From: an uncultured Lachnospiraceae bacterium
GTDB taxonomy: Bacteria > Bacillota > Clostridia > Lachnospirales > Lachnospiraceae
Length of the DNA stretch: 53,318 nt
Direction of reading: 5' to 3'
Assembly (NCBI GenBank): GCA_944381745.1
Contig: CALWMI010000077.1
Coordinates: 1 to 53,318, forward strand
Shown in pieces: positions 1-14,979 of the stretch (the stretch's first letter is position 1; each line of letters begins with the position of its first letter). The position numbers and the translations under genes were made by a program. The notes under the pieces were generated by a model, which saw nothing but the letters and a program-made list of their open reading frames with translations, had not been told where the DNA came from and did not search any database.

Positions 1-95
1 ATGGATGCCATCAACCTGTTCGGAACGCCCGAGCAGAAGGAGAAATATCTGCCGGGCATGTGCGCAGGGACAGATATCGGCTCCCTGGCCTTCAC
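1..95 (+). repeat. 95-bp perfect inverted copy of 1421-1515
   Basis: Bases 1-95 are exactly the reverse complement of 1421-1515, inside the intact acyl-CoA dehydrogenase gene (codons for residues 93-124). The copy begins at the window edge and so may continue beyond it. It joins the truncated second dehydrogenase near a GTGAAGGCC sequence that could be shared microhomology. An edge chimera is the likeliest explanation; a real inverted duplication is possible. Confidence 0.95.
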
Positions 96-518
96 TGCCG
101 TCGTCCTGGACGCGCCGGAGTCGGAGCCTGCTCCCGGCTCAGTCAGGCAAAAGGAGGCAAGGCCGCCCTCCTCAAAAATCTTCTTCTGCACCAACGCTTT
201 CTGGGCGTCCGTCCCGTATTTCATCACCGGCGCGATCGCCGTCCCCGTCACGGAAAAGGCGCAGGCCACGCCGGTATCATGCTTGGCCAGCTCCTCGAAG
301 GTTACGCAGGCGGTCTTGGTGGACAGCCCTGCCCCTCCCCACTCCTCCGGGAAGTCCAGGCTCTGAAGCCCCATCTCCAACCCCGTATTGACAATCTCCT
401 CCGGGAATTCTCCCTTCTCATCGTACCCGGCGATCACCGGGTCCACTGCCTGCTCCCCGAACTGCTTTGCCAGGGCGATCATATCCTGCTGTTCCTCTGT
501 GTATACATGAAATGCCAT
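1..518 (-). CDS. Acyl-CoA dehydrogenase, 3' end lost at contig edge (partial)
   Basis: Reading leftward from ATG at 516-518, after a GAAAGGAAGG ribosome site, gives an acyl-CoA dehydrogenase N-terminal region: MAFHVYTEEQQDMIALAK at the start, FPEEWGGAGLS near residue 65 and the FAD/substrate-loop motif CLTEPGAGSD near residue 128. The family-like sequence runs to about residue 141 (base 96). From base 95 to the edge the frame stays open, but the DNA is a 95-bp inverted copy of the neighbouring dehydrogenase gene, so residues 142 onward are not authentic. The full enzyme would be about 380 residues, would oxidise or, in reverse, reduce an acyl-CoA with electron-transfer flavoprotein, and would be the last visible gene of the catabolic cluster. 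No etf genes are visible; they could lie past the edge. The family call is firm; its substrate cannot be read. Confidence 0.85.
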   Translation of the reverse strand, partial: MAFHVYTEEQQDMIALAKQFGEQAVDPVIAGYDEKGEFPEEIVNTGLEMGLQSLDFPEEWGGAGLSTKTACVTFEELAKHDTGVACAFSVTGTAIAPVMKYGTDAQKALVQKKIFEEGGLASFCLTEPGAGSDSGASRTTAVKAREPISVPAHMPGRYFSFCSGVPNRLMAS

Positions 519-630
519 ACCAGCAGCACCTTCCTTTCTCTTATTTTTGATTATGTCTTTCCCTGCTGCCTCGTCTCTGCTGTCCTGCCTTGATTCTGTC
601 TTTCCCTGCTGTCACTCACCTGTATCCTTG

Positions 631-1791
631 TTAATCCGCAATCAGGCTGTCGTCCTTCTTCAGGATGTAGCTTCCCGAGATCAGCCTCTGTACATCCGCA
701 TTTCCCTCAATATTCGGGAAAATAACAGAATCCCTGAGATACCGTTCCACATGGTACTCCTCCATCCCGCCGTAGGCGCCGAAGGTGTTGACGCACATCT
801 GGATTGTCTGGTTGGACAGGTCTGCGATATAGCCCTTCGCCAGGGCGGTGGCCGCCTGCACCCGGCGCATATTTCCGGCGAACATCTCCGCGTCCTGGGC
901 TGCGCGGTAAAGCATCAGCTTCATAGACAGCGTGTTGGCCGCAATGACCGACGTGCGCAGCTGCACCGTCGGGAATTTGGCAATGGAGGTGCCCCTGTGC
1001 ATCTTGTTGCGGATGTAATCCTTGGACAGGCCGTAGGCTCCCTCCGCTGCCCCGGCAAACACAGCGGCAAAGGCCAGTTTTCCAATGGCTGTCGTGCCCA
1101 GCAGCAGGTCAAAGCCGCCTTTTTCTCCTCCAAGGATATCGCTCTCCTCCACCTCCACGTCATCCAGGAACACATCGTACACGTGAGAGCCGTGGAAGCC
1201 GATTTTCTCCCATTTGCTGGACAGGGAATAGCCCTTGCAGAATTTCTTCACCAGATACGCCGTGCACGTATCCTCCCCCTCATCCCGGGCCACCACCACA
1301 ATCGTGCCTTCAAGGGCGGCGTTGGAGATAAAGCGCTTCACCCCGTTGATGTAAATTTTCCCATCCCTTCTCTTGGCCGTGGTGGTCAGCTGCTTCGGGT
1401 CAGAGCCGGTGCCTGCCTCTGTGAAGGCCAGGGAGCCGATATCTGTCCCTGCGCACATGCCCGGCAGATATTTCTCCTTCTGCTCGGGCGTTCCGAACAG
1501 GTTGATGGCATCCATCGGCAGATAGCACACCGTCAGAAGCTTGGCCGCCGAAGGGGATACCTTGGCGATCTCCTCCAGGCAGATTGCCTCTGCCACAAGG
1601 CCCGCATCCAGCCCGCCGTATGCTTCCGGGTACGGGACGCCCATGAGCCCCAGCTCTCCCATCGTATCAATCAGATCCTGGGGAAACTTGTCGGCATGTT
1701 CAATCTCTTCAATCCTGGGAGCCAGTGCATTTTCTGCGAACTCCCTGGCAGTACTCCTGACTGCCTCCTGCATTTCTGTTAATTCAAACAT
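631..1791 (-). CDS. Acyl-CoA dehydrogenase (short/medium-chain type)
   Basis: This 386-residue protein has the full acyl-CoA dehydrogenase length. It oxidises acyl-CoA to trans-2-enoyl-CoA with FAD or, in anaerobes, reduces enoyl-CoA together with electron-transfer flavoprotein. Visible marks are the N-terminal helical domain (MFELTEMQEAVRSTAREFAE), FTEAGTGSD at 123-131 (FAD/substrate loop), and a C-terminal domain with YHVERYLRD and IEGNADVQR, where E362 sits at the usual catalytic-base position. I chose ATG at 1789-1791 because AAAGGA precedes it; the longer upstream extension is not family-like. It lies downstream of the dehydratase genes and upstream of a second dehydrogenase. Such a dehydrogenase could reduce the enoyl-CoA made by the dehydratase, as AcdB does in Clostridioides difficile leucine fermentation; the substrate here is unknown. 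Confidence 0.93.
   Translation of the reverse strand: MFELTEMQEAVRSTAREFAENALAPRIEEIEHADKFPQDLIDTMGELGLMGVPYPEAYGGLDAGLVAEAICLEEIAKVSPSAAKLLTVCYLPMDAINLFGTPEQKEKYLPGMCAGTDIGSLAFTEAGTGSDPKQLTTTAKRRDGKIYINGVKRFISNAALEGTIVVVARDEGEDTCTAYLVKKFCKGYSLSSKWEKIGFHGSHVYDVFLDDVEVEESDILGGEKGGFDLLLGTTAIGKLAFAAVFAGAAEGAYGLSKDYIRNKMHRGTSIAKFPTVQLRTSVIAANTLSMKLMLYRAAQDAEMFAGNMRRVQAATALAKGYIADLSNQTIQMCVNTFGAYGGMEEYHVERYLRDSVIFPNIEGNADVQRLISGSYILKKDDSLIAD
1421..1515 (-). repeat. Source copy of the 95-bp inverted repeat found at the left edge
   Basis: This segment of the acyl-CoA dehydrogenase gene encodes residues 93-124 and is repeated perfectly, inverted, at 1-95. The gene is uninterrupted here, so this is taken as the original copy. 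Confidence 0.95.
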
Positions 1792-1814
1792 AAACCTATT
1801 CCTTTCTTTCATGG

Positions 1815-1865
1815 TGTACAGCGCCGCCGTACAAGGGACAATACGCTCCCCACACACCGGCGCTG
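1815..1865 (-). repeat. Dispersed GC-rich palindromic repeat, copy in 1792-1890 gap
   Basis: On the minus strand this gap contains AGCGCCGGTGTGTGGGGA, then TCCCTTGTACGGCGGCGC, which fold into an imperfect hairpin. The element resembles one at 28382-28424 (AGCGCCGGTGTACAAGGA and TCCTTGTACGCCGCG) and a half copy at 35582-35600. All three lie between genes. Function is unknown; an intergenic REP-like repeat is the simplest reading. Confidence 0.6.
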
Positions 1866-1890
1866 GCAACAATGAGCAACCAATGCCTGG

Positions 1891-2658
1891 CTATTTTGCC
1901 GCCACCAAGGCGGCGCCCAGGGCGCCGATCGTCTGGGGATCCTCCGGGATTTGCACCTCCTGTCCCAAATTTCTCTCCAGCGCCTTCACAAGCCCCCGGT
2001 TCAGCCCGCCGCCGCCTGTCAGCGCCACCTGGGGCTTCACCCCCACCCTTCTGGCCAGGCCGCAGATCTTTCTTGCCACGGAGTCGTGGATGCCTGCCAC
2101 AATGTCCTCCCGGGCATAGCCCTGGGCCAGCTTGGAGATCACCTCAGACTCCGCGAACACGGTGCAGGTGTTACTGATCTGGCACATTTCCTTGGCGTTG
2201 GCGTCGTACTCTTCCAGCTCCTCCAAAGAGAGGTTCATCACCCGGCACATCACCTCCAGGAACCTGCCGGTTCCCGCAGCGCACTTGTCATTCATCACAA
2301 ACTGCTCGATCATCCCGTTTTCATCGATGCGGATCACCTTCAGATCCTGCCCTCCCACGTCGATGACGGTCCTGGCCTCCGGCAGCATGCGGTGCAGCCC
2401 CTTGGCGTGGCAGGTGATCTCGCTGACCTGCTCGTCTGCCCCTTGGTGGAGCATCCGGCCGTACCCAGTGGCCACCGTCCTCCTGCACTCTTCCTTCGTC
2501 CCCCGGAAGCTGGCGTACAGAAGCCCAATTGCCTGCTCATCCGCCCGAGTCCCGGCGCCGGAAGGCACCACCACCCGGGCCAGGATATTTCCTTCCTTGT
2601 CCACCGCCACACACTTGGTCGCAGTGGAACCGATGTCGATTCCTATGTAGTGTTCCAT
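1891..2658 (-). CDS. 2-hydroxyacyl-CoA dehydratase activator ATPase (HgdC/HadI/FldI type)
   Basis: This 255-residue BadF/BadG/HgdC-family ATPase has the usual length for the activator. The family forms a homodimer around one [4Fe-4S] cluster and uses ATP hydrolysis to push a low-potential electron into the dehydratase, starting its radical cycle. Visible features are the actin-fold phosphate loop IGIDIGSTATK (5-15), VIDVGGQD (98-105), C126 in DKCAAGTGRF and C165 in ISNTCTVFAESE (the expected cluster ligands), and LTGGGGLNRGLV near the C-terminus. It follows the two putative dehydratase subunits, with 21 bases between it and the nearer one. The paired cysteines and the neighbours make this a dehydratase activator rather than a benzoyl-CoA reductase subunit. 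It implies strictly anaerobic metabolism. Confidence 0.95.
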   Translation of the reverse strand: MEHYIGIDIGSTATKCVAVDKEGNILARVVVPSGAGTRADEQAIGLLYASFRGTKEECRRTVATGYGRMLHQGADEQVSEITCHAKGLHRMLPEARTVIDVGGQDLKVIRIDENGMIEQFVMNDKCAAGTGRFLEVMCRVMNLSLEELEEYDANAKEMCQISNTCTVFAESEVISKLAQGYAREDIVAGIHDSVARKICGLARRVGVKPQVALTGGGGLNRGLVKALERNLGQEVQIPEDPQTIGALGAALVAAK

Positions 2659-2679
2659 ATAGCCCGCAGCACCCCCCTC

Positions 2680-3822
2680 CTATGCCCTGCGCCGGCTCTC
2701 TATCTGTTCGGCGTAAGCCTGCAGGCGGGTTCTTGCCCCCTCAAAGGACTGCATAATCTGCTCGATCTCCAGGTTCAAGATCGGAAGCCCCGCCGCCTGT
2801 ACTGCGTCCCGCACCCACGGATAGTCATACTCGTCTGTATCGCAGAATTTCATCAGCGCGAACAAAACAGCCTCTGCCCCGCATGCCCTGCACTCCTCTG
2901 CCACCACGTCGTCCCGCTCCTTCTGCGGGTCGTATAGGAAAGCCTCCCCCCGGATATTCTGGACCTGGCGGGCAAGCCTCTCCAGCTGGCCCAGCCCCTC
3001 CGGCACCCGGTAGCGGAACTGGCGGGATTCCTGGAGCAGCTCGTCCCCCACAATGGCGTAGCCCAGCTCATCTAAAATATCCAGAAGCTCCACTGGTTCC
3101 AGCATCACGCCGCATACATAGAGCCGGATCCCGTGAAATTCCGGCGCAGCTTCCGCCTCCAGTATCCCATTGAGCTCCCGCATCAGCTCCAGGTGCCTGG
3201 AACGCTCCATGTAAAGCCGGGACTTGATCACGTCATGGCGCTGATGGTTTGTGAGGATCCCCGGCTTCTGCGCCAGGATGCGGGTAAACCGCATCAGCTC
3301 CTCCCGGTCCCGGTTGCAGAGGCTGATGGCTTCCCTCAGCGCCTCCTCGGTGATTCTCGCGCCAGTCACCTCCTCCAGCTCCTCCTTCACCCGGGCGAGC
3401 TCCTTCACCATATATTCCACCGCGCACTCCAGCCGGTAATTCTGCGGGTGCTTCACAAAGATCGGGCGCAGCTTCGGCGCAGACAGCTGGATTGTCTGGC
3501 TCATGCATTTCAGTGTGTCGCACAGGAAGGTCAAGAGCACAGCGTCCACCTCGTCGTAAACGCCTGCCACGGACAGCTCCGTGATGGACTGCACGACGGA
3601 GCAGGCAAACGGCGGAAAATATTCCTGTGACCGGGACAGGGATACCTTCTGCCCTCCCCAGATGCCCACCGGGAAGGCTCCCGACGCGATCACCAGCTCC
3701 TCCGGCACAAAGATCGGCGCACAGCCGACCACCTTCCTGCCCTCAGCTTTCTTCCTGTGTACCGTCTCGCTGATATGTGTCACTGCATCCTGCATCTCTC
3801 GAATGATTTCTGCCTTTTCCAT
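2680..3822 (-). CDS. 2-hydroxyacyl-CoA dehydratase subunit (HgdB/HadC/FldC-like)
   Basis: This 380-residue protein belongs to the 2-hydroxyglutaryl-CoA dehydratase D-component family. The heterodimer removes water from an (R)-2-hydroxyacyl-CoA through a ketyl radical. The N-terminus has GRKVVGCAPIFVPEELV, typical of this subunit. Cysteines that may bind its [4Fe-4S] cluster are visible in PPFACSVVQS, TFLCDTLKCMSQ, EECRACGAEAV and MKFCDTDEYDYP. It starts 4 bases after the stop of the partner subunit, so the two are translationally close, and it precedes the activator gene. Which subunit is alpha or beta is inferred from order and the length pair (406 and 380). The natural hydroxyacyl-CoA cannot be read from sequence. 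Confidence 0.9.
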   Translation of the reverse strand: MEKAEIIREMQDAVTHISETVHRKKAEGRKVVGCAPIFVPEELVIASGAFPVGIWGGQKVSLSRSQEYFPPFACSVVQSITELSVAGVYDEVDAVLLTFLCDTLKCMSQTIQLSAPKLRPIFVKHPQNYRLECAVEYMVKELARVKEELEEVTGARITEEALREAISLCNRDREELMRFTRILAQKPGILTNHQRHDVIKSRLYMERSRHLELMRELNGILEAEAAPEFHGIRLYVCGVMLEPVELLDILDELGYAIVGDELLQESRQFRYRVPEGLGQLERLARQVQNIRGEAFLYDPQKERDDVVAEECRACGAEAVLFALMKFCDTDEYDYPWVRDAVQAAGLPILNLEIEQIMQSFEGARTRLQAYAEQIESRRRA

Positions 3823-3826
3823 ACCT

Positions 3827-5047
3827 CTACACCCCTGCCTCTCTTGATACAGCCTCCAAATTTTCTCTCAGCGCCTGGACCCTTGTCTCAAACTGTGCAG
3901 GGCTGAAACCGTTGGGATCTGTCTGATCCCCGTCAAAGGTCGCATACGGCTTATGGTTTTTCTCGTATACCGCCTTGCGCACCGCCGGCTGCATAAAACT
4001 CAGGATCTTGCAGCTCCGGTTCACATGGTACAGCGCCCCGTCGCAGTTTGTGCACTTCATGATGTCGCACCGCACGTCGATCTGACGCTGCAGGCTTCCG
4101 ATGGGAGGGCGGTTGGCGTAGGCGCGGGCAATGGAGCGGATGTCATCCTGCTCGTAGTCCACATACCACTCGGAAGGGTAGAAGGAGCCCGCCAGAATCA
4201 TGTCGTTGGCCTTCATCGTCTTATAAGTCTTTCCCAGATAGGGCCACACCGCGATGCCCTCCCACATAATCCGATGCCTCTGCTCCCCCTTGAACTGGCT
4301 CTCTCCGTTTTTCAGCAGCTCCTCCATCTCCTCCGAAATCAAGTCGTAGTAATCGGCGGTGGATTCCTTTCCCCTGCAGCAGACGGCCAGGATCATGTAG
4401 TTGAACAGATTAAAGCCGTCCATGGGGCTTGGCATGCGCTGCACATAGTCTGTCGCCCGCTTCCACGAGGCGGCGACCCTTCTCGATGTCCTCATCACAC
4501 GGGAAAATTTCTCGTAGTCAAAGGGTTTCCCGCAGAATTCCTCCAGCCTGCGGATCATATCCTTGAACTGCCCCACGACATAGTCCACATCGTTTTCTGT
4601 GGCGTCATACTCCGGCTGGAAGGGGGTGTCGATGAGAATATAAGGGACATCCAGCCTCTTCGCCGTATTCTCAAACCACTTGACGCACAGCCCGCATATA
4701 TTCGTGCAGTTCAGTATGATATCCGGCCTGGGAATATTGCTGATGTCGCTCTCGAAGCTCTCCTCATACCCCAGCCCGAGCCGCGTATAGGAGCACAGGT
4801 CGCTGGAATAGCCCAGCGCCTCGCACGTATCCAGGTAGGGTGTCACCCCCTTCTTCGCCCCCAGCGTAGCCGCCAGATTCTCCGGGTAAGCCACCTGGAT
4901 ATCCATCGTCTCAAGAAATTCCTGCGGGAACAGGCCATTCACCCAGGCGATTTTCTGCCCGCGCTCATGAGCCTTGTACAGGTCGTCCATATATTCTGCC
5001 TGCAGCTTGGCAAGCAGCTGTTTGGAATTTAATTTTTCTTCCGCCAT
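3827..5047 (-). CDS. 2-hydroxyacyl-CoA dehydratase subunit (HgdA/HadB/FldB-like)
   Basis: This 406-residue protein is the first gene of the dehydratase block and the larger partner of the heterodimer. Cysteine-rich segments fit family [4Fe-4S] binding: DTCEALGYSSDLCSYTR (residues about 73-89), ILNCTNICGLCVKWF (about 111-125), and CDIMKCTNCDG near residue 330. The N-terminal IAWVNGLFPQEF matches the family's first Rossmann-like strand. It begins 26 bases after the stop of the sigma-54 regulator, with GGGGGATAAAA before ATG. No separate promoter was seen between them, so the regulator and dehydratase may be co-transcribed. Together with the next two genes it would convert 2-hydroxyacyl-CoA to 2-enoyl-CoA. 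Confidence 0.9.
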   Translation of the reverse strand: MAEEKLNSKQLLAKLQAEYMDDLYKAHERGQKIAWVNGLFPQEFLETMDIQVAYPENLAATLGAKKGVTPYLDTCEALGYSSDLCSYTRLGLGYEESFESDISNIPRPDIILNCTNICGLCVKWFENTAKRLDVPYILIDTPFQPEYDATENDVDYVVGQFKDMIRRLEEFCGKPFDYEKFSRVMRTSRRVAASWKRATDYVQRMPSPMDGFNLFNYMILAVCCRGKESTADYYDLISEEMEELLKNGESQFKGEQRHRIMWEGIAVWPYLGKTYKTMKANDMILAGSFYPSEWYVDYEQDDIRSIARAYANRPPIGSLQRQIDVRCDIMKCTNCDGALYHVNRSCKILSFMQPAVRKAVYEKNHKPYATFDGDQTDPNGFSPAQFETRVQALRENLEAVSREAGV

Positions 5048-5073
5048 TTTTATCCCCCATTTTCCAATACCCC

Positions 5074-7077
5074 TTATTGGATGTTATATTTGTGGAGCCA
5101 TTTATATAACGTCTTGCGGGATACTCCCAGCAAGGACGCCGCTCTCGATTTGTTCCCCCCTGCCCTGGCAAGCGCCTCTATAATTGCCTCCTCCCCCAGT
5201 CTGGCCTCCGCAGCTTCTGAAAGAGACGCGCCGCCTATCCTGCTTTTTCTTCCCGTCTCCTCTGTCCCGGCATACTTCGCCGAGGGGAGCTGTCCTGTAA
5301 CCACCAGATACCGCTCAATGTGCTCCAACGTGATCACCGAGGGGGAGAAAATCTGGACGATCCCCTCGATAAAATTCTGCAGCTCCCGCACATTCCCTCT
5401 CCACCGGAAGGTTTCCAGATATTCCAGCGCCTCCCTGGACAGCTTGGGCGGAGCCAGATGGATCCGGTTGGAGACCCCTTCGATGAAGTGGTTGGCCAAG
5501 AGCTCCACGTCCCCCTCCCGGTTCCGCAGCGGCGGCAGCGTCAGCACAAAGGAGGACAGCCGGAAGTAGAGATCCTCCCGGAACCCTCTCTTCTCCACCA
5601 GATCCAGGATATTTTCATTGGTGGCCGCGATAATCCGCACATCCACACAGATCTCCTTCGTCCCGCCCAGACGCGTAAACCGCTTCGTCTCAATCGCCCG
5701 CAGCAGGATTGCCTGTAGATCCAGGGGCAGCGTGCCAATCTCATCCAGGAAGAGCGTTCCATGGTTGGCCAGCTCCATCTTGCCGGTATTGCCGCCCTTC
5801 TTGGAACCGGTAAACGCCCCCGCCTCATAGCCGAACAGCTCGCTCACCATGAGATCCTTGGGAAAGGTGGCGCAGTTCACCGCGATAAACGGCCCTTCCC
5901 TGCGGGAGGAAGCATTGTGGATGGACTGGGCAAAGATGTCCTTGCCGCAGCCGGATTCCCCCAGGATCAGGATATTATTGTCAAACTCCGCATAGCGGTT
6001 GGCGATGACAATGGCCTCCTTGATTGCCTTGCTCTGTCCCACAATATTGTTGAAATTCAGAAGGGCGCTGTTTCCGATCTGCCGCGACACAAAGGTGCTG
6101 ATCTTCTCCTCGTTGGATATGAAAAATCGGATGCCCTCGTAGCCCAGCTTCGACTGCCGGTACACCTCTGTGGAGACAAAATACTGCCGCGTCACCCCGT
6201 TCACGGTGATCGGAATGCTCAGATTGCGCACATGCTTGCGGTTATTCACAATATCCCACAGCTGCTGGTTCGCCGGAATCGGGTCAAAAATCTCGTAGGC
6301 ACTCTGGAACACCACATCCCGATAGGGAATCCCCAGCACATTGAAAATATTGGAGTTGTGGTACAGGGTGTAGGGCTTCCCGGAGCCCCGGTCAATATCG
6401 ATGCATATATAACCGGTGGTATCCGTCAGGTAGAACCGGTAGAAGGTGTCCACCATGTCGATGTGCAGGCAGGCCTCCTTGGTAACCGAGAGGAGTGTCG
6501 GCAGATAATCGCCGATCGGCTCTGTCCGCGGCATAATAATGCCCACGCCGCCCAGGAGGTTCAGCTTCCCGAACTGTTCGTCCGAGTTGTCCTCCAGCAC
6601 ACAGGGCGAGAAATACATCGTGGTATCGATGAACATCTCCAGGTAGTGGTCTGCGCCGCTTGTGACATAGGGATCCATGATGCCAAGCCCGATAGAAAAG
6701 GCCGTGACCCCGGAGGATTCCTCGGACAGCACCGTCCCCTCCGCGATATCCTTGCAGGCAAGCCATTCCTTGAGCTCCTCCGAACAATACAGTCTCAGCA
6801 CAGTACCCCTGGCGTCCACCAGCACAAAGGCCAGCGGGTTCCTCGTGTAATGCCGCACCGCCCTGATCACCCGGTTGCAGTAGGCATACATTGTCCGCGT
6901 CTCCTGCTTGGCTGCCAGGAATTCCTCCTCGCTGGCATGCGCAAGCTCTCTGGACGCCGGATCCATCCCCTGCCGGATGCATTTCTCCCATCCGCTTTTC
7001 AGAAGCGGAGATTCAAAATTCTGATATCCTCCCCGCAGATTTTCCTGGTGTTCCATCCACACTTGTCTGTTATCCAT
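5074..7077 (-). CDS. Sigma-54-dependent enhancer-binding regulator (AcoR-like)
   Basis: This 667-residue activator has a sensor N-terminus, a sigma-54 AAA+ domain and a C-terminal Fis helix-turn-helix. The N-terminus begins LLKSGWEKCIRQGMDP, the signature of AcoR-type regulators, followed by a GAF-like region and a PAS-like region (about 205-320). AAA+ marks are Walker A GESGCGKD (373-380), GAFTG (420-424, the sigma-54 contact loop), Walker B TLFLDE (441-446) and R-finger region RGFREDLYFRL. The Fis helix-turn-helix is at 631-664. ATG at 7075-7077 is preceded by GGATGGGGAATCT. A sigma-A promoter lies just upstream. Two sigma-54 promoters at 13066-13080 and 13541-13555 are its likely targets. 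The effector is unknown, possibly the cluster substrate or a CoA ester. Confidence 0.95.
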   Translation of the reverse strand: MDNRQVWMEHQENLRGGYQNFESPLLKSGWEKCIRQGMDPASRELAHASEEEFLAAKQETRTMYAYCNRVIRAVRHYTRNPLAFVLVDARGTVLRLYCSEELKEWLACKDIAEGTVLSEESSGVTAFSIGLGIMDPYVTSGADHYLEMFIDTTMYFSPCVLEDNSDEQFGKLNLLGGVGIIMPRTEPIGDYLPTLLSVTKEACLHIDMVDTFYRFYLTDTTGYICIDIDRGSGKPYTLYHNSNIFNVLGIPYRDVVFQSAYEIFDPIPANQQLWDIVNNRKHVRNLSIPITVNGVTRQYFVSTEVYRQSKLGYEGIRFFISNEEKISTFVSRQIGNSALLNFNNIVGQSKAIKEAIVIANRYAEFDNNILILGESGCGKDIFAQSIHNASSRREGPFIAVNCATFPKDLMVSELFGYEAGAFTGSKKGGNTGKMELANHGTLFLDEIGTLPLDLQAILLRAIETKRFTRLGGTKEICVDVRIIAATNENILDLVEKRGFREDLYFRLSSFVLTLPPLRNREGDVELLANHFIEGVSNRIHLAPPKLSREALEYLETFRWRGNVRELQNFIEGIVQIFSPSVITLEHIERYLVVTGQLPSAKYAGTEETGRKSRIGGASLSEAAEARLGEEAIIEALARAGGNKSRAASLLGVSRKTLYKWLHKYNIQ

Positions 7078-7159
7078 AGATTCCCCATCCTTCGAAAAAA
7101 ATTTGAAATTGGCAGCTGTTCCCGTCTGGATTCTCAGGCCGGCAAAAGCTCCAGCCTTT

Positions 7160-7188
7160 ATTATACACAAACTTATGTCAACGTCCAA
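7160..7188 (-). promoter_or_regulatory. Sigma-A promoter of the regulator gene
   Basis: On the minus strand TTGGAC (7183-7188) and TATAAT (7160-7165) are separated by 17 bases. This would start transcription about 75 bases before the regulator ATG, giving it vegetative expression independent of the sigma-54 promoters. Confidence 0.75.
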
Positions 7189-7239
7189 CAACGCGGGACA
7201 GCCCGGGACAGGGATTGTGCGGAGGGTCACCGCCTCAGC

Positions 7240-8019: not shown

Positions 8020-8059
8020 CCTTCTTCACCTTCCTGCGTCCAGCCTTTCTCAGCCTCTC

Positions 8060-9280
8060 TCATTCCGACTGGCTGACCGCTTTTCTGTCAATCATTTCCT
8101 GAATCTTCTCATCGGAGAACCCAATCTCCCTCAGGATCTCTGCCGAGTGCTCCCCCACCCGCGGATACGGGTAACGCACTTCCAGCTCATGCTTATCCCC
8201 GAACATCACCGGCGGCATGGGTATCATTGTCGTGGAACCGTCGCGGTGGGTATATTCCACCACCAGCCCGTTCTCCACCGCCTGGGGATCCCTGTGCACA
8301 TCCACGCTGTGCATCACCTGGTTGTAGGCGATGTCCTCCTCCTTTAAGCGCCTGCACACTTCCTCTGTGCTGTACCGCCCATACGCTTCCTCCAGCACCT
8401 CCACCAGCTCAAAGCGGTGTTCCAGCATCGTCTCGTAGTCGCAGAACCGCGGGTCGTCCACCAGATCCTCCCTCCCCAGCGCCTTCAGATAGTGGGGAAG
8501 CTTCTCGTTCTGGAACACGGAGGTCATAATCCAGTCTCCATCCTTCGTCCGGTAACTGTTCACCAGCGGGTCGCTGGGCCTCTTCCGGCTCTTCGGGTAC
8601 ATCTCCGGGTGGTACTGGGTCTGCATCACTGCGGACGTAGAGCACCAGATGCCTACGCCATATAAGGGTACGCAGATCTGGCATCCCTGCCCTGTCCTCT
8701 CCCTCTGGAAAAGGCCTGTCCCGATGGCTCCCGCCAGCACAGCTCCCGCCGTATCATCCCCTGCCCCGTAGAAGGGAATGGCCGGATACTCCCCGCCCTC
8801 CATCTGGTCAATCATAAAACCGGTCTTTGCCCAGAATGCGACGGTGTCATAACCGGCGTTGTCTTTCTCCGGTCCATAGTTGCCGAATCCACTGATGCCT
8901 CCCCATATCAGTTCCGGATATTTCTTATGTAAACTCTCATAATCCAGCCCCAGCTTGGCAAGGGCCCGCGGCCTCCAATTGGTCACAAAGACATCCGCAT
9001 CAGCCAGCAGCCTGTGCATCGCCTCCATCCCGTCCGGATCCTTCAGGTTGATGGCCAGAGACCGCTTATTGTAATTGATAAAACCGAAAAACGGATTGCA
9101 GTCCTCCGTGCACGGCATGCCAATCGTGGCGCCCACGCTGCGGTTCGGGTCTCCCGCAACCCCCTCCACCTTGATCACATCCGCCCCCCAGTCGGCAAGC
9201 ATCTTTCCACAGACTGGGCCGGACATAAACTGTGACAGGTCGATGACCTTGATTCCGGTTAAAGGTTTCGTGTTGTTCAT
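8060..9280 (-). CDS. Class III (CaiB/BaiF, HadA/FldA-like) CoA transferase
   Basis: This 406-residue family III CoA transferase moves CoA between carboxylic acids. It begins GIKVIDLSQFMSGPVCGKMLADWGADVIKVE, the N-terminal family signature, here split over residues 9-39. At the position where the plus-strand relative at 13672 has the racemase His (AGHD), it has AGYD (142-145). An Asp in GAGDDTAG (175 or 176) aligns with the acyl-carrying Asp of formyl-CoA transferase. This favours transferase over racemase activity. I prefer ATG at 9278-9280 to the upstream in-frame TTG; AAGGAGAGG lies 15 bases upstream. In known 2-hydroxyacid fermentations the same family activates the hydroxyacid, and that is its likely job here. 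Confidence 0.9.
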   Translation of the reverse strand: MNNTKPLTGIKVIDLSQFMSGPVCGKMLADWGADVIKVEGVAGDPNRSVGATIGMPCTEDCNPFFGFINYNKRSLAINLKDPDGMEAMHRLLADADVFVTNWRPRALAKLGLDYESLHKKYPELIWGGISGFGNYGPEKDNAGYDTVAFWAKTGFMIDQMEGGEYPAIPFYGAGDDTAGAVLAGAIGTGLFQRERTGQGCQICVPLYGVGIWCSTSAVMQTQYHPEMYPKSRKRPSDPLVNSYRTKDGDWIMTSVFQNEKLPHYLKALGREDLVDDPRFCDYETMLEHRFELVEVLEEAYGRYSTEEVCRRLKEEDIAYNQVMHSVDVHRDPQAVENGLVVEYTHRDGSTTMIPMPPVMFGDKHELEVRYPYPRVGEHSAEILREIGFSDEKIQEMIDRKAVSQSE

Positions 9281-9339
9281 ATTCCTATAAAGCCTCTCCT
9301 TCAAAAATCGTATTGCTGATTCCGCTTACATGCGGCTTA

Positions 9340-9369
9340 AGTGGGCGGACATTGGTACTTCCGCCCACT
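9340..9369. other. 10-bp perfect inverted repeat between symporter and CoA transferase
   Basis: AGTGGGCGGA (9340-9349) and TCCGCCCACT (9360-9369) pair perfectly around a 10-base loop in the 161-bp gap. No U-run follows on the minus strand, so it is not a standard terminator. It could be a processing or stability stem that sets the ratio of symporter to CoA transferase, or a protein-binding palindrome. Confidence 0.7.
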
Positions 9370-9441
9370 CGCCAATTTAGAACTTCTTTTTTCACTATGG
9401 GCTAATCGTCCTAAATAATCGCCGTCTTACATCTTCGCGCC

Positions 9442-10917
9442 TTACATCTCACAGAAGAATGTCTTGACCACTTCCTTGCTCGGTTTGGCCGTCATCTTGC
9501 TCACCACGATCATGATGATGAAGGTGAGCGGGATGGTGCACACCATCGGCGCCTGATGCAGGAATCCGACAATGTCGAAGGAATAGTTGATGATGTAGAA
9601 TACCATGCCGAACAGCATGCCCACGCTGATACCTTCCTTGGTTGCCCGCGGCCAGTAAAGAGCCAGCGTCAGAGCCGGGAGGATGGATGCCGCACAGCCG
9701 CCCTGACAGAAGTTCAGCAGAATATGCAGGGTGGCAGGCTCCGTCAGCGCGATCAGGATCGTGGCGATACCCAAGCAGACGGTTGTAATTCTCATAACCT
9801 TCTTCAGCTTCGCCTCGTCTGCCTGCGGATGGGTTCTCTTGTACACGTCGTTGACGATGGCGCTGGCTACACAGATGAAGATGGCGCCAATCGTGGACTG
9901 CCCGGCTCCTGCCGCTGCGGACAGGACGATGCCGGCCAGGCCGGAGGGCAGGATACCCATGGACAGCGTGGAGGTGGCGTAGTCGATCATCGTCTCATCC
10001 AGAGCCGGATCGAAAGCCCGGGCAGCCGCGCCGCCCATGATTGCCACGAGCGTGCCCCAGATCAGCAGCATGATCGTGCCGATAATCATACCTCTCTTCA
10101 TGGTCTTCGTGTTGTTATAGGTCAGGGAGCCCTGGGACACCCACGGCTGGCCGACGGCCATGATGGCGAACATCACCCAGAACTCGAAGATTCCCAGCAT
10201 GGGCATTGTCCCTCCGTCATTTGGCGTCAGAAGCGCCGGATCCACCGACTTCAGGGATTCGAAGATCGCCCCGAAGGAACCGAAATACTTCACATAGCCG
10301 ATCATCAGGATGACAGAGCCCAAGCACATCACGAAGCCCTGGATGATGGCCACGGTTGTCACGCCTGTCATGCCGCCCAGCGCCACGTACAGGGTGATGA
10401 TCGCCGCGAAGACAATCAGGGATACCCGGTAAGGGATTCCTGCGCTGGCCTCGATGGCCCTGGAGCCGCCCACGAACTCTCCCGCCGCAGAGGCAGTGGA
10501 GAATACGACCGTTGCGATAACCAGCAGGGCGACCACCATCTTGGAATTGTCAAAGCGGGCGCGGAACACATCCACCAGGGAGTTGGCATTTACCCTTCTC
10601 CCCACGATCGCCATGCGCTTGCCCGTCAGGATCAGCGCTGCAAAGGTAACCGGCGCGATGTACAGGAACAGGGTCATATAGCCGGGCCCGTAGGCTGCCG
10701 ACCGGCCCACACATGCGACGAAAGTACCGGTGGATACCGCTCCTGCGGATACCAGCACGGCGACGCCCACGGCACCGATGCGCCCGCCGCCCTTGAAGGT
10801 CTGGGACGCGAAATCCCCGCCCTCCTTGAGAGCCTTGTCATTCTTGCGCACGCCGTACCAGGTGGCGCCGATCACAACGATAAAGTAAATTAAAATAACT
10901 AACGACTGACCGTTCAT
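9442..10917 (-). CDS. Sodium:solute symporter (SSS family, PanF-like)
   Basis: This 491-residue protein is almost entirely hydrophobic, with about 13 membrane segments, the normal SSS size and topology. It should carry a small organic acid or amide into the cell with sodium. Family-like parts are TFKGGGRIGAVGVAVLVSAG near residue 44 (early unwound helix region), SLVDVFRARFDN after the third segment, and YVALGGMTGVTTVAIIQGF near residue 180. A DUF997/YhdT-like small protein lies 15 bases upstream, a pairing also seen for pantothenate permease in enterobacteria, which supports PanF-like classification. The substrate need not be pantothenate. Given the neighbours, it probably imports the amide degraded by this cluster. 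Confidence 0.93.
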   Translation of the reverse strand: MNGQSLVILIYFIVVIGATWYGVRKNDKALKEGGDFASQTFKGGGRIGAVGVAVLVSAGAVSTGTFVACVGRSAAYGPGYMTLFLYIAPVTFAALILTGKRMAIVGRRVNANSLVDVFRARFDNSKMVVALLVIATVVFSTASAAGEFVGGSRAIEASAGIPYRVSLIVFAAIITLYVALGGMTGVTTVAIIQGFVMCLGSVILMIGYVKYFGSFGAIFESLKSVDPALLTPNDGGTMPMLGIFEFWVMFAIMAVGQPWVSQGSLTYNNTKTMKRGMIIGTIMLLIWGTLVAIMGGAAARAFDPALDETMIDYATSTLSMGILPSGLAGIVLSAAAGAGQSTIGAIFICVASAIVNDVYKRTHPQADEAKLKKVMRITTVCLGIATILIALTEPATLHILLNFCQGGCAASILPALTLALYWPRATKEGISVGMLFGMVFYIINYSFDIVGFLHQAPMVCTIPLTFIIMIVVSKMTAKPSKEVVKTFFCEM

Positions 10918-10932
10918 ATGCTTCCCCCTCTC

Positions 10933-11232
10933 TTATTCTTCGTCTACTTCTTTTTTGCCGTCCGCACTCAGAGGGCAGTCCTTAATCATGAGAGCCTGGA
11001 CAATCATGCAGATCGGATAGATCACGACAGTTCCAATGGAAACCATGAACATCCACTTGGGAATCCCCATAATGTATGTATAGGTCAGCGGATCCTGATT
11101 CGCTCCCCAGAAGCCCCAATACCACACCCAAGCAGACAGAATCACAAAGGAAATAAGGAAAATAATTAGCTCCTTATTCGCCTGTTTCATGCGCTTGTCT
11201 TCTTTCAGGCCATACTCGTCAATAAGACTCAT
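10933..11232 (-). CDS. YhdT/DUF997-like small membrane protein, symporter partner
   Basis: This 99-residue protein has two membrane helices (IIFLISFVILSAWVWYWGFW, about 24-43, and MFMVSIGTVVIYPICMIVQAL, about 61-81) with GIPKWMF leading into the second. That layout and the position directly before a PanF-like symporter match the DUF997/YhdT family, thought to be an accessory subunit of such transporters. ATG at 11230-11232 follows a GGAGGAG ribosome site. The protein ends in a charged tail KKEVDEE. Sequence similarity was judged by eye, so the family name is likely but not certain; small symporter subunit is the safer functional statement. Confidence 0.75.
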   Translation of the reverse strand: MSLIDEYGLKEDKRMKQANKELIIFLISFVILSAWVWYWGFWGANQDPLTYTYIMGIPKWMFMVSIGTVVIYPICMIVQALMIKDCPLSADGKKEVDEE

Positions 11233-11278
11233 ATTCTCTCCTCCTTCTCTTCTTTTGAATAACGCCCATAATGTTTCT

Positions 11279-11302
11279 AAATAAAACTATCTTGCGATAG
11301 CT
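11279..11302 (-). terminator. Weak terminator-like hairpin after the amidase gene
   Basis: On the minus strand AGCTATC, loop GCAA, GATAGTT form a 7-bp stem with a GNRA loop, followed by TTTTATTT. The stem is AT-rich, so partial termination is more likely than complete; the symporter genes downstream could still be reached from the sigma-54 promoter. Confidence 0.45.
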
Positions 11303-11324
11303 ATTCAGTCTGTCCTCCCCTTCC

Positions 11325-12752
11325 TCAGTCCACCGGCGGCACCGCATGGTCAAGCTTCGGCGCCTTCTTGTGGTAGTCGGTGGCCTGCTGGAAAGCATTC
11401 CCTACCCGGAAGCACATCCCCTCCCGGAAGGAATCGCCGATGATCATGATCCCGATGGGCATGCCGTCCGAGTCAAATCCCGCCGGGATATCCAGCGCTG
11501 GTTTCCCGGTGACACTGGGAATTGCGGTATAGCACATATTGGCATGGAGCGGATCCTCCCGCACGCCGGGTGTAAACTCCACCACCGGGTTCTCGATGGA
11601 CAGGGCCGTGTACGGCACCGTGGGGGTGATAATCACGTCCACGTCCTTGAACGCCTCCTCCAGCTCCTGGGCAATCAGCGTCCGGTAGGCAAGCGCCTGG
11701 TAGTACTGGGTTCCAGTGAAGAAACAGCCCGCCTCCAGCTCAATGCGGATCTCGTCGGCGTACTCCTCCGGGCACTCCCGCAGCCATCCCAGGTGGTAGG
11801 CGCTGGGCTCCACGGCGTCCACAACCATGATCGCGCCGATCAGCGTATCCAGGTTGTCGATCGTAATCTCCTTCACCACCGCTCCCAGCTCCTCAAATTT
11901 CTTCAAAGCCTCCACATAGCATTTCTCCACGTCCGGCTGGTTGTGGTTGAAGCAGTAATCCTTGATGACGCCGATGCGGATGTCCTTGACGCCCTTGTTC
12001 AAATCCTTCGTGTAGTCCTCCACCGGCTTGAGCTGGGAATTCTTGTCGTGATAGTCATGCCCGGCAATCACTTCCAGCATGATCGCACAGTCCTCCACGG
12101 TACGGCACATCGGCCCTACCGTGTCCAAAGAGTAGGCCAGCGGCACCACGCCGTAATTGCTGACACGGCCGATGGATGGACGGATGCCTGTGATCCCGCT
12201 CACCGAGGAGGGCAGCCGCACCGAGCCGCCGGTATCCGTTCCCAGGCCGCCAAAAGCAGCCCTGGCCGCCACGGCGATGCCTGTCCCGCCCGAGGAACCC
12301 GACGGATTCTTCGTGAAATCCCACGGGTTGTGGGCGTACCCGTAATGCTCGTTGGAGGTGGAGCCTCCCCAGGCAAACTCGTGCATATTGGTCTTGCCGA
12401 TGATAATGGCTCCGGCCCCTTTCAGCTTCTTGACCGCCGTCGCGTCCTCCTCCGTCAGATTATCCTTGAAAAGCTTGGAGCCAGCCGTGGTCACCGTGCC
12501 TGCCATGGCAATGTTGTCCTTGATGACAATCGGCACGCCGTGCAGAGGCCCCAGCACATACCCGCACGCGATCATCTCGTCATAGGCCTTCGCCAGCTTC
12601 ATGCTCTCCTCTTCATAGAGGCTGATGAATGCATTGTAGTCTTTGATTGCCTTGCACACGTCCAGGCACTCCCTCACGACCTCCTGGCAGCTTACCTCCC
12701 TGTCCTTAATCTTCTTTGCGATTTCCGCCAAGCTCAATTCCTTGTACCCCAT
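11325..12752 (-). CDS. Amidase of the amidase-signature (GatA/AtzF) family
   Basis: This 475-residue amidohydrolase cleaves a carboxamide with a Ser-cisSer-Lys triad. All three are visible: K78 in VPIVIKDN, cis-Ser S153 in NPSGSSGG and nucleophile S177 in GTDTGGSVRLPSS; the 24-residue spacing of the last two matches the family. Length is typical of GatA-like and catabolic amidases. ATG at 12750-12752 follows AAAGGGGAGGTAACT, a strong site. It is the second gene from the minus-strand sigma-54 promoter, behind a 64-residue GatC/AtzG-like protein. There is no gatB nearby, so a role in tRNA amidation is unlikely. Hydrolysis of the imported amide to a carboxylic acid, possibly a 2-hydroxyacid, is the inferred first step. 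Confidence 0.93.
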   Translation of the reverse strand: MGYKELSLAEIAKKIKDREVSCQEVVRECLDVCKAIKDYNAFISLYEEESMKLAKAYDEMIACGYVLGPLHGVPIVIKDNIAMAGTVTTAGSKLFKDNLTEEDATAVKKLKGAGAIIIGKTNMHEFAWGGSTSNEHYGYAHNPWDFTKNPSGSSGGTGIAVAARAAFGGLGTDTGGSVRLPSSVSGITGIRPSIGRVSNYGVVPLAYSLDTVGPMCRTVEDCAIMLEVIAGHDYHDKNSQLKPVEDYTKDLNKGVKDIRIGVIKDYCFNHNQPDVEKCYVEALKKFEELGAVVKEITIDNLDTLIGAIMVVDAVEPSAYHLGWLRECPEEYADEIRIELEAGCFFTGTQYYQALAYRTLIAQELEEAFKDVDVIITPTVPYTALSIENPVVEFTPGVREDPLHANMCYTAIPSVTGKPALDIPAGFDSDGMPIGIMIIGDSFREGMCFRVGNAFQQATDYHKKAPKLDHAVPPVD

Positions 12753-12775
12753 AGTTACCTCCCCTTTGGTAATGT

Positions 12776-12970
12776 TTAATTTCCGTGTTTAAAAATGTTA
12801 CATGGAAGGATGTCGCGGAAGCCCTTCTGGCTCATCTTCTTATCCATCGCCTCCGCCCTGGTAATCCAGTCCTGGTAGGTAGGAAGAACCGCCTTCTTTC
12901 TCTCCTCGCTCATGTTCAAATCCAACAGCTTATTGAACATCTCGATGTCTTCTGGCGTGTACACTTTCAT
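12776..12970 (-). CDS. Small GatC/AtzG-like putative amidase partner
   Basis: This 64-residue protein starts at ATG 12968-12970 after AAAGGAGATTATGCC; an upstream in-frame start lacks a site and would cross the promoter leader. It is the first gene behind the minus-strand sigma-54 promoter, 23 bases before the amidase. The central segment LLDLNMSEERKKAVLPTY followed by a helix (WITRAEAMDKKMS) resembles the short helical GatC/AtzG-like proteins that wrap around amidase-signature enzymes. That match is by pattern only. A role as a stabilising subunit of the amidase is the best inference; it has no signal peptide or membrane segment. Confidence 0.65.
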   Translation of the reverse strand: MKVYTPEDIEMFNKLLDLNMSEERKKAVLPTYQDWITRAEAMDKKMSQKGFRDILPCNIFKHGN

Positions 12971-13065
12971 GGCATAATCTCCTTTCTTTGTGGAATGTTT
13001 TATCTTGAGGAAGCATGGCAGCAGCCAAAATCTTCCAACAGCAACCGTCTCCACTGACTATTTAA

Positions 13066-13080
13066 GCAAGCCCAGTGCCA
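13066..13080 (-). promoter_or_regulatory. Sigma-54 (-24/-12) promoter for the catabolic operon
   Basis: The minus strand reads TGGCAC (13075-13080), 5 bases, TTGC (13066-13069), extended to TTGGCACTGGGCTTGCTT. This matches the sigma-54 consensus in every conserved base. Transcription would start near 13055, about 85 bases before the 64-residue gene. The cluster encodes its own GAFTG-bearing activator, so this is probably the main inducible promoter. Confidence 0.9.
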
Positions 13081-13370
13081 ACATCTTTCCGGCCGTGTTT
13101 TGACTGAAAACAAAATCTATTTTCATCTCCTGGGATACACCAGTATGCAACACCCCCTTTTTGTCTGTTTTCTCCTTCCAAATTCACCAGGAATCCCGAA
13201 AATACGCCCTTCCTGGCTCTCCCATCATACAGCGGTTTGGAAATCATTTCCAGTTAAATCTTCTTAAAATTGCTTTATATTTTTTTTATATTTCTTTTAA
13301 AAAATGTTACCTTTGTAATAAATCCCCCTCTGAAAGTTACAGATTTTGTTTTCTTTTTGTTTCCTTAACC

Positions 13371-13440
13371 TGTCACCTGGTTACACTTTTGTTTACCCTT
13401 GTGCGCCCCGGTGACACTTGATTCCCACTCCTCTGTAACC
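13371..13440. promoter_or_regulatory. Candidate enhancer (upstream activator) sites
   Basis: Between the two outward sigma-54 promoters lies an almost palindromic 15-mer, TGTCACC-T-GGTTACA (13371-13385), followed by half sites GGTGACA (13410-13416) and TGTAACC (13434-13440). A related GTTACA is at 13335-13340. The spacing, about 290 bases from one promoter and 155 from the other, suits a Fis-type enhancer-binding protein acting by DNA looping. The rest of 12971-13671 is AT-rich with no convincing gene. Confidence 0.55.
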
Positions 13441-13540
13441 GCCTGTCCCTTCCTTGCCCTCTCCTTATAAAATTTCCTTTCCATTTCTGTCCTATTCGCT
13501 CAATGCTCCCCGAAAAACTCCCCCGTACACTTTTCCCGCA

Positions 13541-13555
13541 TGGCATACAAATTGC
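13541..13555 (+). promoter_or_regulatory. Divergent sigma-54 (-24/-12) promoter
   Basis: The plus strand reads TGGCAT (13541-13546), 5 bases, TTGC (13552-13555) then T. It differs from consensus TGGCAC-N5-TTGC at one base. Start would be near 13567, about 105 bases before the racemase-like gene at 13672. Confidence 0.8.
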
Positions 13556-13671
13556 TCTTATTTGTACACAGAGATATCCTGCCCGCCTGCAAACGTGCTA
13601 TAATGGCAGAAGAACTGCTGCGAGGCAAGGCAGCTTACAGCGATATCAAATCTTTCACAATGGAGGTAGCT

Positions 13672-14838
13672 ATGAGTGCATTAGATGGTGTAAAAATCCT
13701 GGATTTTTCCACGCTGCTCCCCGGCCCTTACGCGACGATGATGCTGGCAGATTTGGGTGCGGAGGTGCTGCGCGTGGGCAGCAAGGACAAGACCGACCTG
13801 GTGGCTGTGTGGCCGCCGATGCTTGAGGAGGCGGGCGTCTCCGCTCCCTGGGCATGGCTCAGCCGGAATAAGAAATCCATATTTTTGAATTTAAAAAAAG
13901 AAACCGCCGTACAGGCGGTGAAAGAGCTGGTCAAAGAATATGATATTGTGGTGGAACAGTTCCGCCCCGGGGTGATGGACAAGCTGGGCGTGGGATATGA
14001 GGAGCTGCGGCAGGCCAATCCCCGCCTGATCTACTGTTCCCTCACCGGCTACGGGCAGACCGGCCCCATGGCCATGAAAGCAGGGCACGACATCAATTAC
14101 CTCTCCCGGGCGGGCGTCATCTCTGCCGCCGGGCGGGCAAAGGAGGGGCCTTCCCTCTACAACTTCCAGATTGCGGACGTGGCCTCCGGAGCCATGAACG
14201 TGGTGGTGAGCATCCTGGCAGCCCTCCACTACCGGGACGTCACCGGCAAGGGCCAGTACATTGACGTGTCCATGACCGACGGGGTCATCCCTTTTAACTC
14301 CATGGACGGCGCCTGCTTCCTGGCCGGAGCTCCTGCTCCCCAGCGGGAATCCCAGCAGCTCAACGGCGGGGAGATCTATGACTTCTACCGCACAAAAGAC
14401 GGCCAATATATGAGCGTGGGTTCCCTGGAACCGAAATTCTTCGCCCAGCTGTGTATCGGCATGGAGCATCCGGAGTGGGCGGACGGCAAAATCCTCAAGA
14501 CGGACTTGAAAATGGTGAAGGAAACCTTTAAAGAGAAGTTCCTGACAAAGACGCGGGACGAATGGACGGAAATCTTCCAGAAGCTGGATGCCTGCGTGGA
14601 GCCTGTCCTCTCCCTTGAGGAGGCCGCCGCAGACGAGCACAACAACGCCCGGCAGATGTGGGTGGACGTGCCCCTTCCCACCGCTCCCGGCAAGACGGTC
14701 CGCCAGATGGGCTGCCCCATCAAGCTCTCCGACTGCCCGGCAGAGTACCGCCACGCGGGCTACCCGGCAGGCTTCCACACCCAGGAAATCCTTAAAAAAC
14801 TGGGGTATTCTGATATAGATATTAAAGAAATGATTTAA
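13672..14838 (+). CDS. Alpha-methylacyl-CoA racemase-like CaiB/BaiF-family enzyme
   Basis: This 388-residue class III CoA transferase-fold protein begins GVKILDFSTLLPGPYATMML. It carries AGHDINYL with H139 and a downstream D169 in IADVASG. The 30-residue gap equals the spacing of the catalytic His/Asp pair of alpha-methylacyl-CoA racemase, and GHDINYL is a hallmark of that branch. It may therefore epimerise a 2-methyl- or other 2-substituted acyl-CoA; CoA transfer cannot be excluded because D169 also occupies the transferase position. ATG at 13672 follows TGGAGGTAGCT. It is transcribed away from the operon from its own sigma-54 promoter and ends at a strong terminator, so it forms a single-gene unit of the same regulon. 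A racemase would let both enantiomers enter the pathway. Confidence 0.85.
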   Translation: MSALDGVKILDFSTLLPGPYATMMLADLGAEVLRVGSKDKTDLVAVWPPMLEEAGVSAPWAWLSRNKKSIFLNLKKETAVQAVKELVKEYDIVVEQFRPGVMDKLGVGYEELRQANPRLIYCSLTGYGQTGPMAMKAGHDINYLSRAGVISAAGRAKEGPSLYNFQIADVASGAMNVVVSILAALHYRDVTGKGQYIDVSMTDGVIPFNSMDGACFLAGAPAPQRESQQLNGGEIYDFYRTKDGQYMSVGSLEPKFFAQLCIGMEHPEWADGKILKTDLKMVKETFKEKFLTKTRDEWTEIFQKLDACVEPVLSLEEAAADEHNNARQMWVDVPLPTAPGKTVRQMGCPIKLSDCPAEYRHAGYPAGFHTQEILKKLGYSDIDIKEMI

Positions 14839-14871
14839 TAAAGATTAGTGCGTAAGCAATCAGAAAATCCA

Positions 14872-14926
14872 AACCGCCTGTCCCTACGGCCGAGCCAGTC
14901 GACCTGTAGGACAGGCGGTTTTCTTT
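14872..14926 (+). terminator. Strong rho-independent terminator
   Basis: AACCGCCTGTCCCTAC (14872-14887) pairs with GTAGGACAGGCGGTT (14906-14920) with one bulged base, then TTCTTTG. It ends the racemase-like gene. It also separates the catabolic cluster from the remnant region that follows. Confidence 0.85.
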
Positions 14927-14979
14927 GCCTTAAATAGGCGGATAGACAGGACGATTTACTGTCAGGATAAAGGTCGATT

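Follow-up and report, generated by a model that had tools for sequence, protein, structure and literature searches.

The contig CALWMI010000077.1 of an uncultured Lachnospiraceae bacterium, analysed over its whole length of 53,318 nucleotides (the window; contig C77, one of 114 in the draft genome G000), carries at one end a block of 13 genes that joins an amidase and a sodium symporter to a predicted 2-hydroxyacyl-CoA dehydratase. We propose that importer, amidase and dehydratase block, placed under a divergent sigma-54-type regulon, may form a single fermentation route for an imported short 2-hydroxy acid amide, a proposal that we give an even chance of being right. As judged from sequence, the existence of one such regulon, including a racemase-like gene on the opposite strand, is well supported, and a single amide pathway may fairly be inferred; the order of the reactions and the class of substrate are predicted. 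More tentatively, the block could be a mobile operon for 2-hydroxy acid amides that combines HadB of a new subclass, its active site remodelled from Ser to Asn-Gly, with an alpha-epimerase feeding both enantiomers to a ketyl-radical enzyme, so that fermentation would start from an amide and not from an amino acid.

Radical 2-hydroxyacyl-CoA dehydratases are known from the fermentation of amino acids and lactate. If the proposal holds, the block would represent an amide-fed variant of the known amino-acid fermentation, and with an amidase, a symporter and a racemase-like gene inherited alongside, radical dehydratases would reach amide-bound hydroxy acids, a class to which host metabolites, N-lactoyl amino acids among them, belong. 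The gene set is small enough for gene-by-gene expression and assay, making the claim directly testable, and its HadB is an active-site variant from nature that could serve work on the ketyl mechanism.

Gene content and co-inheritance of the block

The initial annotation had named an amidase, a symporter with a small partner, a CoA-transferase, a dehydratase, an activator and dehydrogenases. All were matched by profiles and are open and collinear, with the second acyl-CoA dehydrogenase (ACD2) cut at the contig end; missing from that inventory were a 64-residue orphan protein (12776-12970) and an enoyl-CoA hydratase (ECH1, 7240-8019). Read along the minus strand from 13080 downward, the genes encode the orphan protein, the amidase, a DUF997 protein, a sodium:solute symporter (SSF), a family III CoA-transferase, ECH1, a sigma-54-dependent activator, HadB, HadC, HadI, the acyl-CoA dehydrogenase ACD1 and ACD2, separated by gaps of 4-162 bases, and a CaiB-family gene diverges on the plus strand.

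A HadB search of genome contigs returned seven loci. L007, from an uncultured Lachnospiraceae, and L009, from Ruminococcaceae CU972, had HadB identities of 92% and 86%, and the others (L008, L010-L013) had 24-51%. In L009 the same 13 genes occur in the same order and orientation with 69-88% protein identity (racemase-like protein 81%, orphan 75%, amidase 85%, DUF997 77%, SSF 79%, CoA-transferase 75%, ECH1 69%, activator 69%, HadB 86%, HadC 71%, HadI 72%, ACD1 88%, and ACD2 84% over the part present in the window), and are followed by a second crotonase, ECH2. The first of two genes flanking the L009 block had best matches of 41, 37 and 33% in the window's genus (three of four genomes, none in G001), and the second had 29, 28, 28 and 21% (four of four). 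Because identities in the flanks are 21-41% as against 69-88% inside, the 13-gene block has probably moved as one unit, two flanking genes being a small sample and perhaps not orthologues.

In the congener G001, one contig end carries the racemase-like gene (89%), the orphan (94%) and the amidase (96%), and a second, taken to be L007, runs from the end of the activator gene to ACD2, ECH2, a nitroreductase-family gene, etfB, etfA and a third dehydrogenase (ACD3). A fourth copy is likely in the metagenome behind P0004 (amidase, 84%) and P0124 (HadB, 82%), since the two share identical assembly figures (3 contigs, the longest 28,406). The grouping of amidase, symporter and dehydratase in the initial annotation is supported by their co-inheritance in L009. 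A close dehydratase block routinely lacking the amidase was not encountered: the amidase is present in all three genomes with a HadB identity of at least 86% (in G001 on the other contig end), and none was seen at eight other HadBC loci (HadB at most 53%) within the stretches examined. One of these is a plainer block in L035 (4677-12707), with a sigma-54 activator, dehydrogenase, HadI, HadB, HadC and CoA-transferase and no such amidase or symporter seen.

The block appears to be rare. At an E value of 1e-110 or better, amidase hits came from 2 of 397 genomes in the family set, 1 of 391 in the class set and 1 of 348 in the phylum set; these sets overlap, and each counts the window's own genome. 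HadB hits came from 3 of 397 genomes of the family (1e-105) and 2 of 378 of the phylum (1e-120), the own genome again included. Within the genus, G002 gave no amidase match at 1e-80 and G003 only one of 37%. Viral contigs yielded no amidase, and plasmids two records at 39-42% (E limit 1e-90).

Divergent sigma-54-type promoters

The strict -24/-12 pattern TGGCAYNNNNNTTGCT occurs twice in the window, as against 0.05 expected, and none of 100 shuffles had two. Both sites lie in a single divergent intergenic region. The operon site (TGGCACTGGGCTTGCT, 13065-13080, minus strand), which precedes the orphan-amidase pair, agrees with the consensus at 11/11 positions, and that of the racemase-like gene (TGGCATACAAATTGCT, 13541-13556, plus strand) at 10/11; sites at both places are kept in L027 and L009 (10/11 and 11/11 in each). 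The activator gene (5074-7077, minus strand, as are all further block genes unless stated) lies within the operon, and its product has the GAFTGS loop. Sigma-54 control, as first annotated, is supported by the promoter pair at three loci and by the activator. The nearest NCBIfam model of the latter is PrdR, matched in the AAA+/Fis part only (346.6 bits, cut-off 795). PrdR acts in sigma-54 regulation. The present arrangement resembles PrdR-type regulation in having the gene of an enhancer-binding activator inside the operon and -24/-12 promoters, and differs from it in its pair of divergent promoters, of which one serves the racemase-like gene.

Control of this type is not restricted to blocks with the amidase, because the had locus of L008 (5160-9894), with no amidase seen, carries three strict sigma-54-like sites; it comprises a HadBC block of 51% identity, HadI on the opposite strand and an activator nearby. 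One strict sigma-54-like site was also seen in each of L036, L037 and L038, the loci around rpoN in congeners.

The HadBC-like dehydratase and its NG subclass

HadB (3827-5047) and HadC (2680-3822) are adjacent HGD-D subunits of the alpha and beta types (245 and 218 bits), and HadI (1891-2658) is a BadF-type ASKHA ATPase, the dehydratase activator (TIGR00241, 270.6 bits against a cut-off of 125.4). HadB matched chain A of 2-hydroxyisocaproyl-CoA dehydratase (3o3m) with 364 bits and HadC chain B with 307 bits, as compared with at best 112 and 84 bits to benzoyl-CoA reductase subunits; with bits so far below those to HadBC, a benzoyl-CoA-reductase-like function was not our first choice. More HGD-D and BadF-type genes, distant from the set described here, are found on contigs C73 and C68 of the same draft (L029, L030).

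The HadB alignment covered 120 listed of 332 relatives, the window's row (P0122) included. Cys84, Cys117 and Glu55 of the alpha subunit are present in all 120 rows and Cys346 in 119 (one gap); presumably the three cysteines are ligands of the Fe-S cluster and Glu55 is functional. The equivalent of 3o3m Ser37, to which we assume an active-site role, is Gly38 in the window; a literature search on the role of this serine gave nothing useful. At this position the listed rows have Ser (107), Gly (9, always as Asn-Gly), Ala (3) or a gap (1), and the nine Asn-Gly (NG) rows form a single clade with a Shimodaira-Hasegawa-like approximate likelihood ratio (SH-aLRT) support of 100, corresponding to one change on the tree. 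L007 and L009 also have Gly. Of the eight loci where no amidase was seen, Ser is present in six and Ala in L012; L013 prints Gly, but at 24% identity and with Glu55 misaligned too.

The amidase and its orphan partner

The amidase-signature enzyme (11325-12752) matched PF01425 with 380 bits. Lys78, Ser153, Ser154 and Ser177, which we take to be catalytic, are kept in all 120 listed relatives (the best 120 of 3,713). Of the 18 nearest amidases five have Glu338 (P0008 and the four closest, P0002-P0005), and the remaining 102 listed all lack it; in the four closest it goes together with His403, and most others have Leu338. In the alignment to Staphylococcus aureus GatA (2df4_A), Arg358 and Asp425, assumed here to bind glutamine, correspond to Glu338 and Met406 of the amidase. 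A housekeeping GatA role was rejected, as the glutamine-binding residues are changed and no GatB or GatC is encoded among the neighbour genes.

The orphan gene is the first of the operon. For its product, no GatC or AtzG match was obtained up to an E value of 10 in PDB or Pfam. An AlphaFold model from three sequences is a low-confidence helical hairpin, with a mean predicted local distance difference test score of 68, too weak for a fold search. The orphan profile found six entries in a set of 5.8 billion sequences, the window's own among them; the entry P0245 and amidase P0005 have the same figure for the longest contig (2,806) and may be neighbours. In AtzG-AtzE and GatCA, as described in PMC6219798, an amidase works with a small non-catalytic partner. 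The window is similar in that a very small gene lies immediately upstream of a GatA-like enzyme of the amidase-signature family. The 64-residue protein itself, in contrast, resembles neither GatC nor AtzG in sequence as far as could be detected, and homology to them was not adopted.

Transport, CoA transfer and the remaining enzymes

The symporter (9442-10917) matched SSF with 184 bits; its nearest NCBIfam model is PanF (240.8 bits, under the cut-off of 328). The small membrane partner (10933-11232) matched DUF997 with 38.5 bits against a cut-off of 26.3. The CoA-transferase (8060-9280; family III, 305 bits) is closest among solved proteins to succinate-hydroxymethylglutarate CoA-transferase. 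For the divergent CaiB-family gene (13672-14838, plus strand) the best solved relatives are alpha-methylacyl-CoA racemases, and alignment to 1x74 showed that His126 (in AGHD), Asp156 and Glu241, presumably the racemase catalytic residues, are kept, where the operon CoA-transferase has AGYD instead. The residues agree with the racemase-like assignment made at the outset.

ECH1 has GGGNEL and GQPEV motifs, which we assume carry the hydratase catalytic Glu residues. The divergent ACD1 (631-1791) keeps the presumably catalytic Glu of the IEGN motif. The real part of the ACD2 reading frame (96-518) encodes the first 141 residues only, because an inverted copy at the contig end is joined on there: bases 1-95, with no strand assigned, exactly duplicate bases 1421-1515 in inverted orientation, create a false fusion reading frame and are best read as an assembly artefact. 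An intact ACD2 relative in L007 matches 1buc with 355 bits. The nearest NCBIfam model is AcrC for ACD1 (221 bits), ACD2 (432.5, L007 copy) and ACD3 (548.6), all under the cut-off of 640. In the profile scans ACD1 lacked its first three residues, ACD2 still had the artefact residues attached, and the sequences of the CoA-transferase and activator began somewhat before their likely starts; the activator start was chosen from the L009 alignment and a purine-rich site upstream.

Whether etf genes follow the second dehydrogenase, a question raised with the initial annotation, has a divided answer. In L007 the stretch downstream of ECH2 (7228-11168) contains the nitroreductase-family gene, etfB, etfA and ACD3, so that etf genes do follow, after ECH2 and the nitroreductase gene; they were not seen in about 5 kb of L009 beyond ECH2, and the window's contig stops short of this region. 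The L007 EtfA is nearest to AcrA, under the cut-off, and EtfB is nearest to the general EtfB model, with AcrB second.

Proposed route and substrate

In the proposed route, the sodium symporter with DUF997 would import a small, carboxylate-bearing amide, and the amidase, probably together with the 64-residue partner, would free the 2-hydroxy acid. The family III CoA-transferase would move CoA from the product acyl-CoA onto this acid, and the racemase-like enzyme might epimerise the alpha carbon, so that either enantiomer could reach the (R)-specific dehydratase. HadI is predicted to inject one electron with ATP, upon which HadBC would remove water via a ketyl radical, a mechanism reviewed for 2-hydroxyacyl-CoA dehydratases in PMC11574389 and PMC8473912. 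Reduction of the enoyl-CoA by the acyl-CoA dehydrogenases would provide the electron sink, and ECH1 may hydrate a part of the enoyl-CoA towards a 3-hydroxyacyl-CoA for oxidation. The genome has two strong 3HCDH_N matches elsewhere, which are weak support for the route, since this family gives matches in all 14 control genomes. Both promoters would be switched on when the regulator senses the substrate.

The possible complete route of the initial annotation stands as to its genes. It is not complete in the window, where ACD2 is cut and the ECH2 that follows ACD2 in L007 and L009 would lie beyond the contig end, and it had been drawn too short, leaving out two crotonases, the racemase-like gene's promoter of the same kind and the orphan partner.

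No 2-hydroxyacid dehydrogenase is found among the 13 genes, all of which belong to other families, and the same holds for L009, the outer genes being read by eye only. The lack of this enzyme, together with the importer, the amidase and the racemase-like gene, favours a 2-hydroxy acid that arrives preformed, bound as an amide and in (S) or mixed stereochemistry. As a weak suggestion, the substrate may have the shape of a primary 2-hydroxyamide or of an N-(2-hydroxyacyl) amino acid, e.g., N-lactoyl amino acids.

Several observations weigh against this route. Co-transfer of the block is evidence of joint selection and not of one linear pathway. The amidase family is very broad and occurs in aerobes too. 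HadB (439.7 of 750 bits) and HadC (372.6 of 700) fall far under the NCBIfam cut-offs for 2-hydroxyisocaproyl-CoA dehydratase, and with Gly in place of Ser in HadB the reaction could differ. ECH2 lies above the PRK08260 cut-off (353 against 320) and lacks both hydratase Glu residues of ECH1. With respect to regulation, rpoN was not detected in G000 (94.9% complete) and was found in the congeners G001, G002 and G003; a gap in the draft is the simplest reading. A sigma-70-like site (10/12) lies at 7187-7160, upstream of the activator gene, and intervals of 161 and 162 bases separate the CoA-transferase and activator genes from the genes before them. Transcription of the had genes may thus involve more than the amidase promoter, and the activator and downstream genes may also have their own transcription start. 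Such sites are near chance in number in positions 1-15000 (10, against 7.0 in shuffles), as are terminator-like ones (15 against 11.7). Finally, an enhancer-like inverted repeat, TGTNACC-NN-GGTNACA, is perfect once in L009 (0/300 single-base shuffles) and reaches 10/12 in the window (14/300 shuffles) and 9/12 in L027 (71/300); it is convincing only in L009 and a lead only.

Alternative explanations and known systems

The amidase might instead act on an N-acyl amino acid and set the amino acid free, the had block then being an ordinary Stickland reductive branch for that amino acid with transaminase and 2-hydroxyacid dehydrogenase encoded elsewhere. 2-Hydroxyacyl-CoA dehydratases do serve the reductive branch of amino-acid fermentation, as stated in PMC11574389, and the plainer L035 block without a visible amidase is in line with such a role. 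The block of the window, however, has neither a transaminase nor a 2-hydroxyacid dehydrogenase (the rest of the genome was not searched for either), and a racemase-like gene under a like promoter would be needless if the cell's own dehydrogenase made the (R) acid. We consider this explanation unlikely.

The clearest known counterparts are the had operon of Clostridioides difficile and the fld operon of Clostridium sporogenes, which serve the Stickland reductive branch and include a 2-hydroxyacid dehydrogenase and acd with etfBA. The block shares with them a HadBC-like dehydratase, a HadI-type activator, a family III CoA-transferase and an acyl-CoA dehydrogenase. Unlike them it has no hydroxyacid dehydrogenase, its HadB is of the NG subclass, and it adds the amidase, orphan partner, symporter pair, two crotonases, second dehydrogenase and divergent racemase-like gene. 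The lactoyl-CoA/acryloyl-CoA route of Clostridium propionicum starts from lactate, or from amino acids via pyruvate, according to PMC8473912. It likewise comprises 2-hydroxyacyl-CoA dehydration followed by enoyl-CoA reduction, and AcrC is the model nearest to ACD2; it has no amide step, in contrast to the amidase-containing block, and the L007 copy of ACD2 misses the AcrC cut-off. A combination of dehydratase, amidase, symporter and racemase was not described in the titles and abstract openings searched, a coverage with subscription journals mostly outside it.

NG-type HadBC could also be another ketyl-radical enzyme, with a different leaving group or a reduction, for which the amidase prepares the acid. 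The clean single origin of Asn-Gly in the Ser37 region in 9 of 120 listed HadB rows would fit such a change, as would the amidase pocket region, which differs too in the four closest relatives, and two crotonases and two dehydrogenases are more than a plain had route needs. Since the closest solved relative is nevertheless 2-hydroxyisocaproyl-CoA dehydratase, far ahead of benzoyl-CoA reductase in bits, and the alpha subunit retains Glu55 and its three cluster cysteines, we regard this as improbable, slightly more so than the Stickland explanation.

Far less probable is pantothenate, or a close analogue, as the substrate, with PanF-like import, hydrolysis to pantoate and beta-alanine, and conversion of beta-alanine to propionate by way of acryloyl-CoA. 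As an amide, pantothenate bears a carboxylate, and one of its halves is a 2-hydroxyacyl group; PanF is nearest to the symporter, AcrC to ACD1, ACD2 and the L007 ACD3, and AcrA to EtfA, in each case below the cut-off, which for PanF counts against the idea. Pantoate has no beta hydrogen for dehydration by HadBC. No pantoate ligase was found in four of four genus genomes (G000-G003), and an apparent auxotroph would be degrading its own vitamin. The protein behind bacterial pantothenase is called unknown in PMC10393543, a point in favour. As a separate matter, the missing ligase suggests that members of the genus perhaps cannot synthesise pantothenate.

Two unrelated modules, for amide use and for hydroxyacid reduction, that share a regulator and travel together by chance would suit the sigma-54-like sites beside the amidase-free L008 had block and the sigma-70-like site upstream of the activator, and are scarcely credible with a 13-gene order fixed in two lineages and a sigma-54 site conserved before the orphan-amidase end.

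Outside the block, a short open reading frame (15334-15660, 108 residues) near the racemase-like gene contains a Schlafen AlbA_2 domain and is perhaps a fragment.

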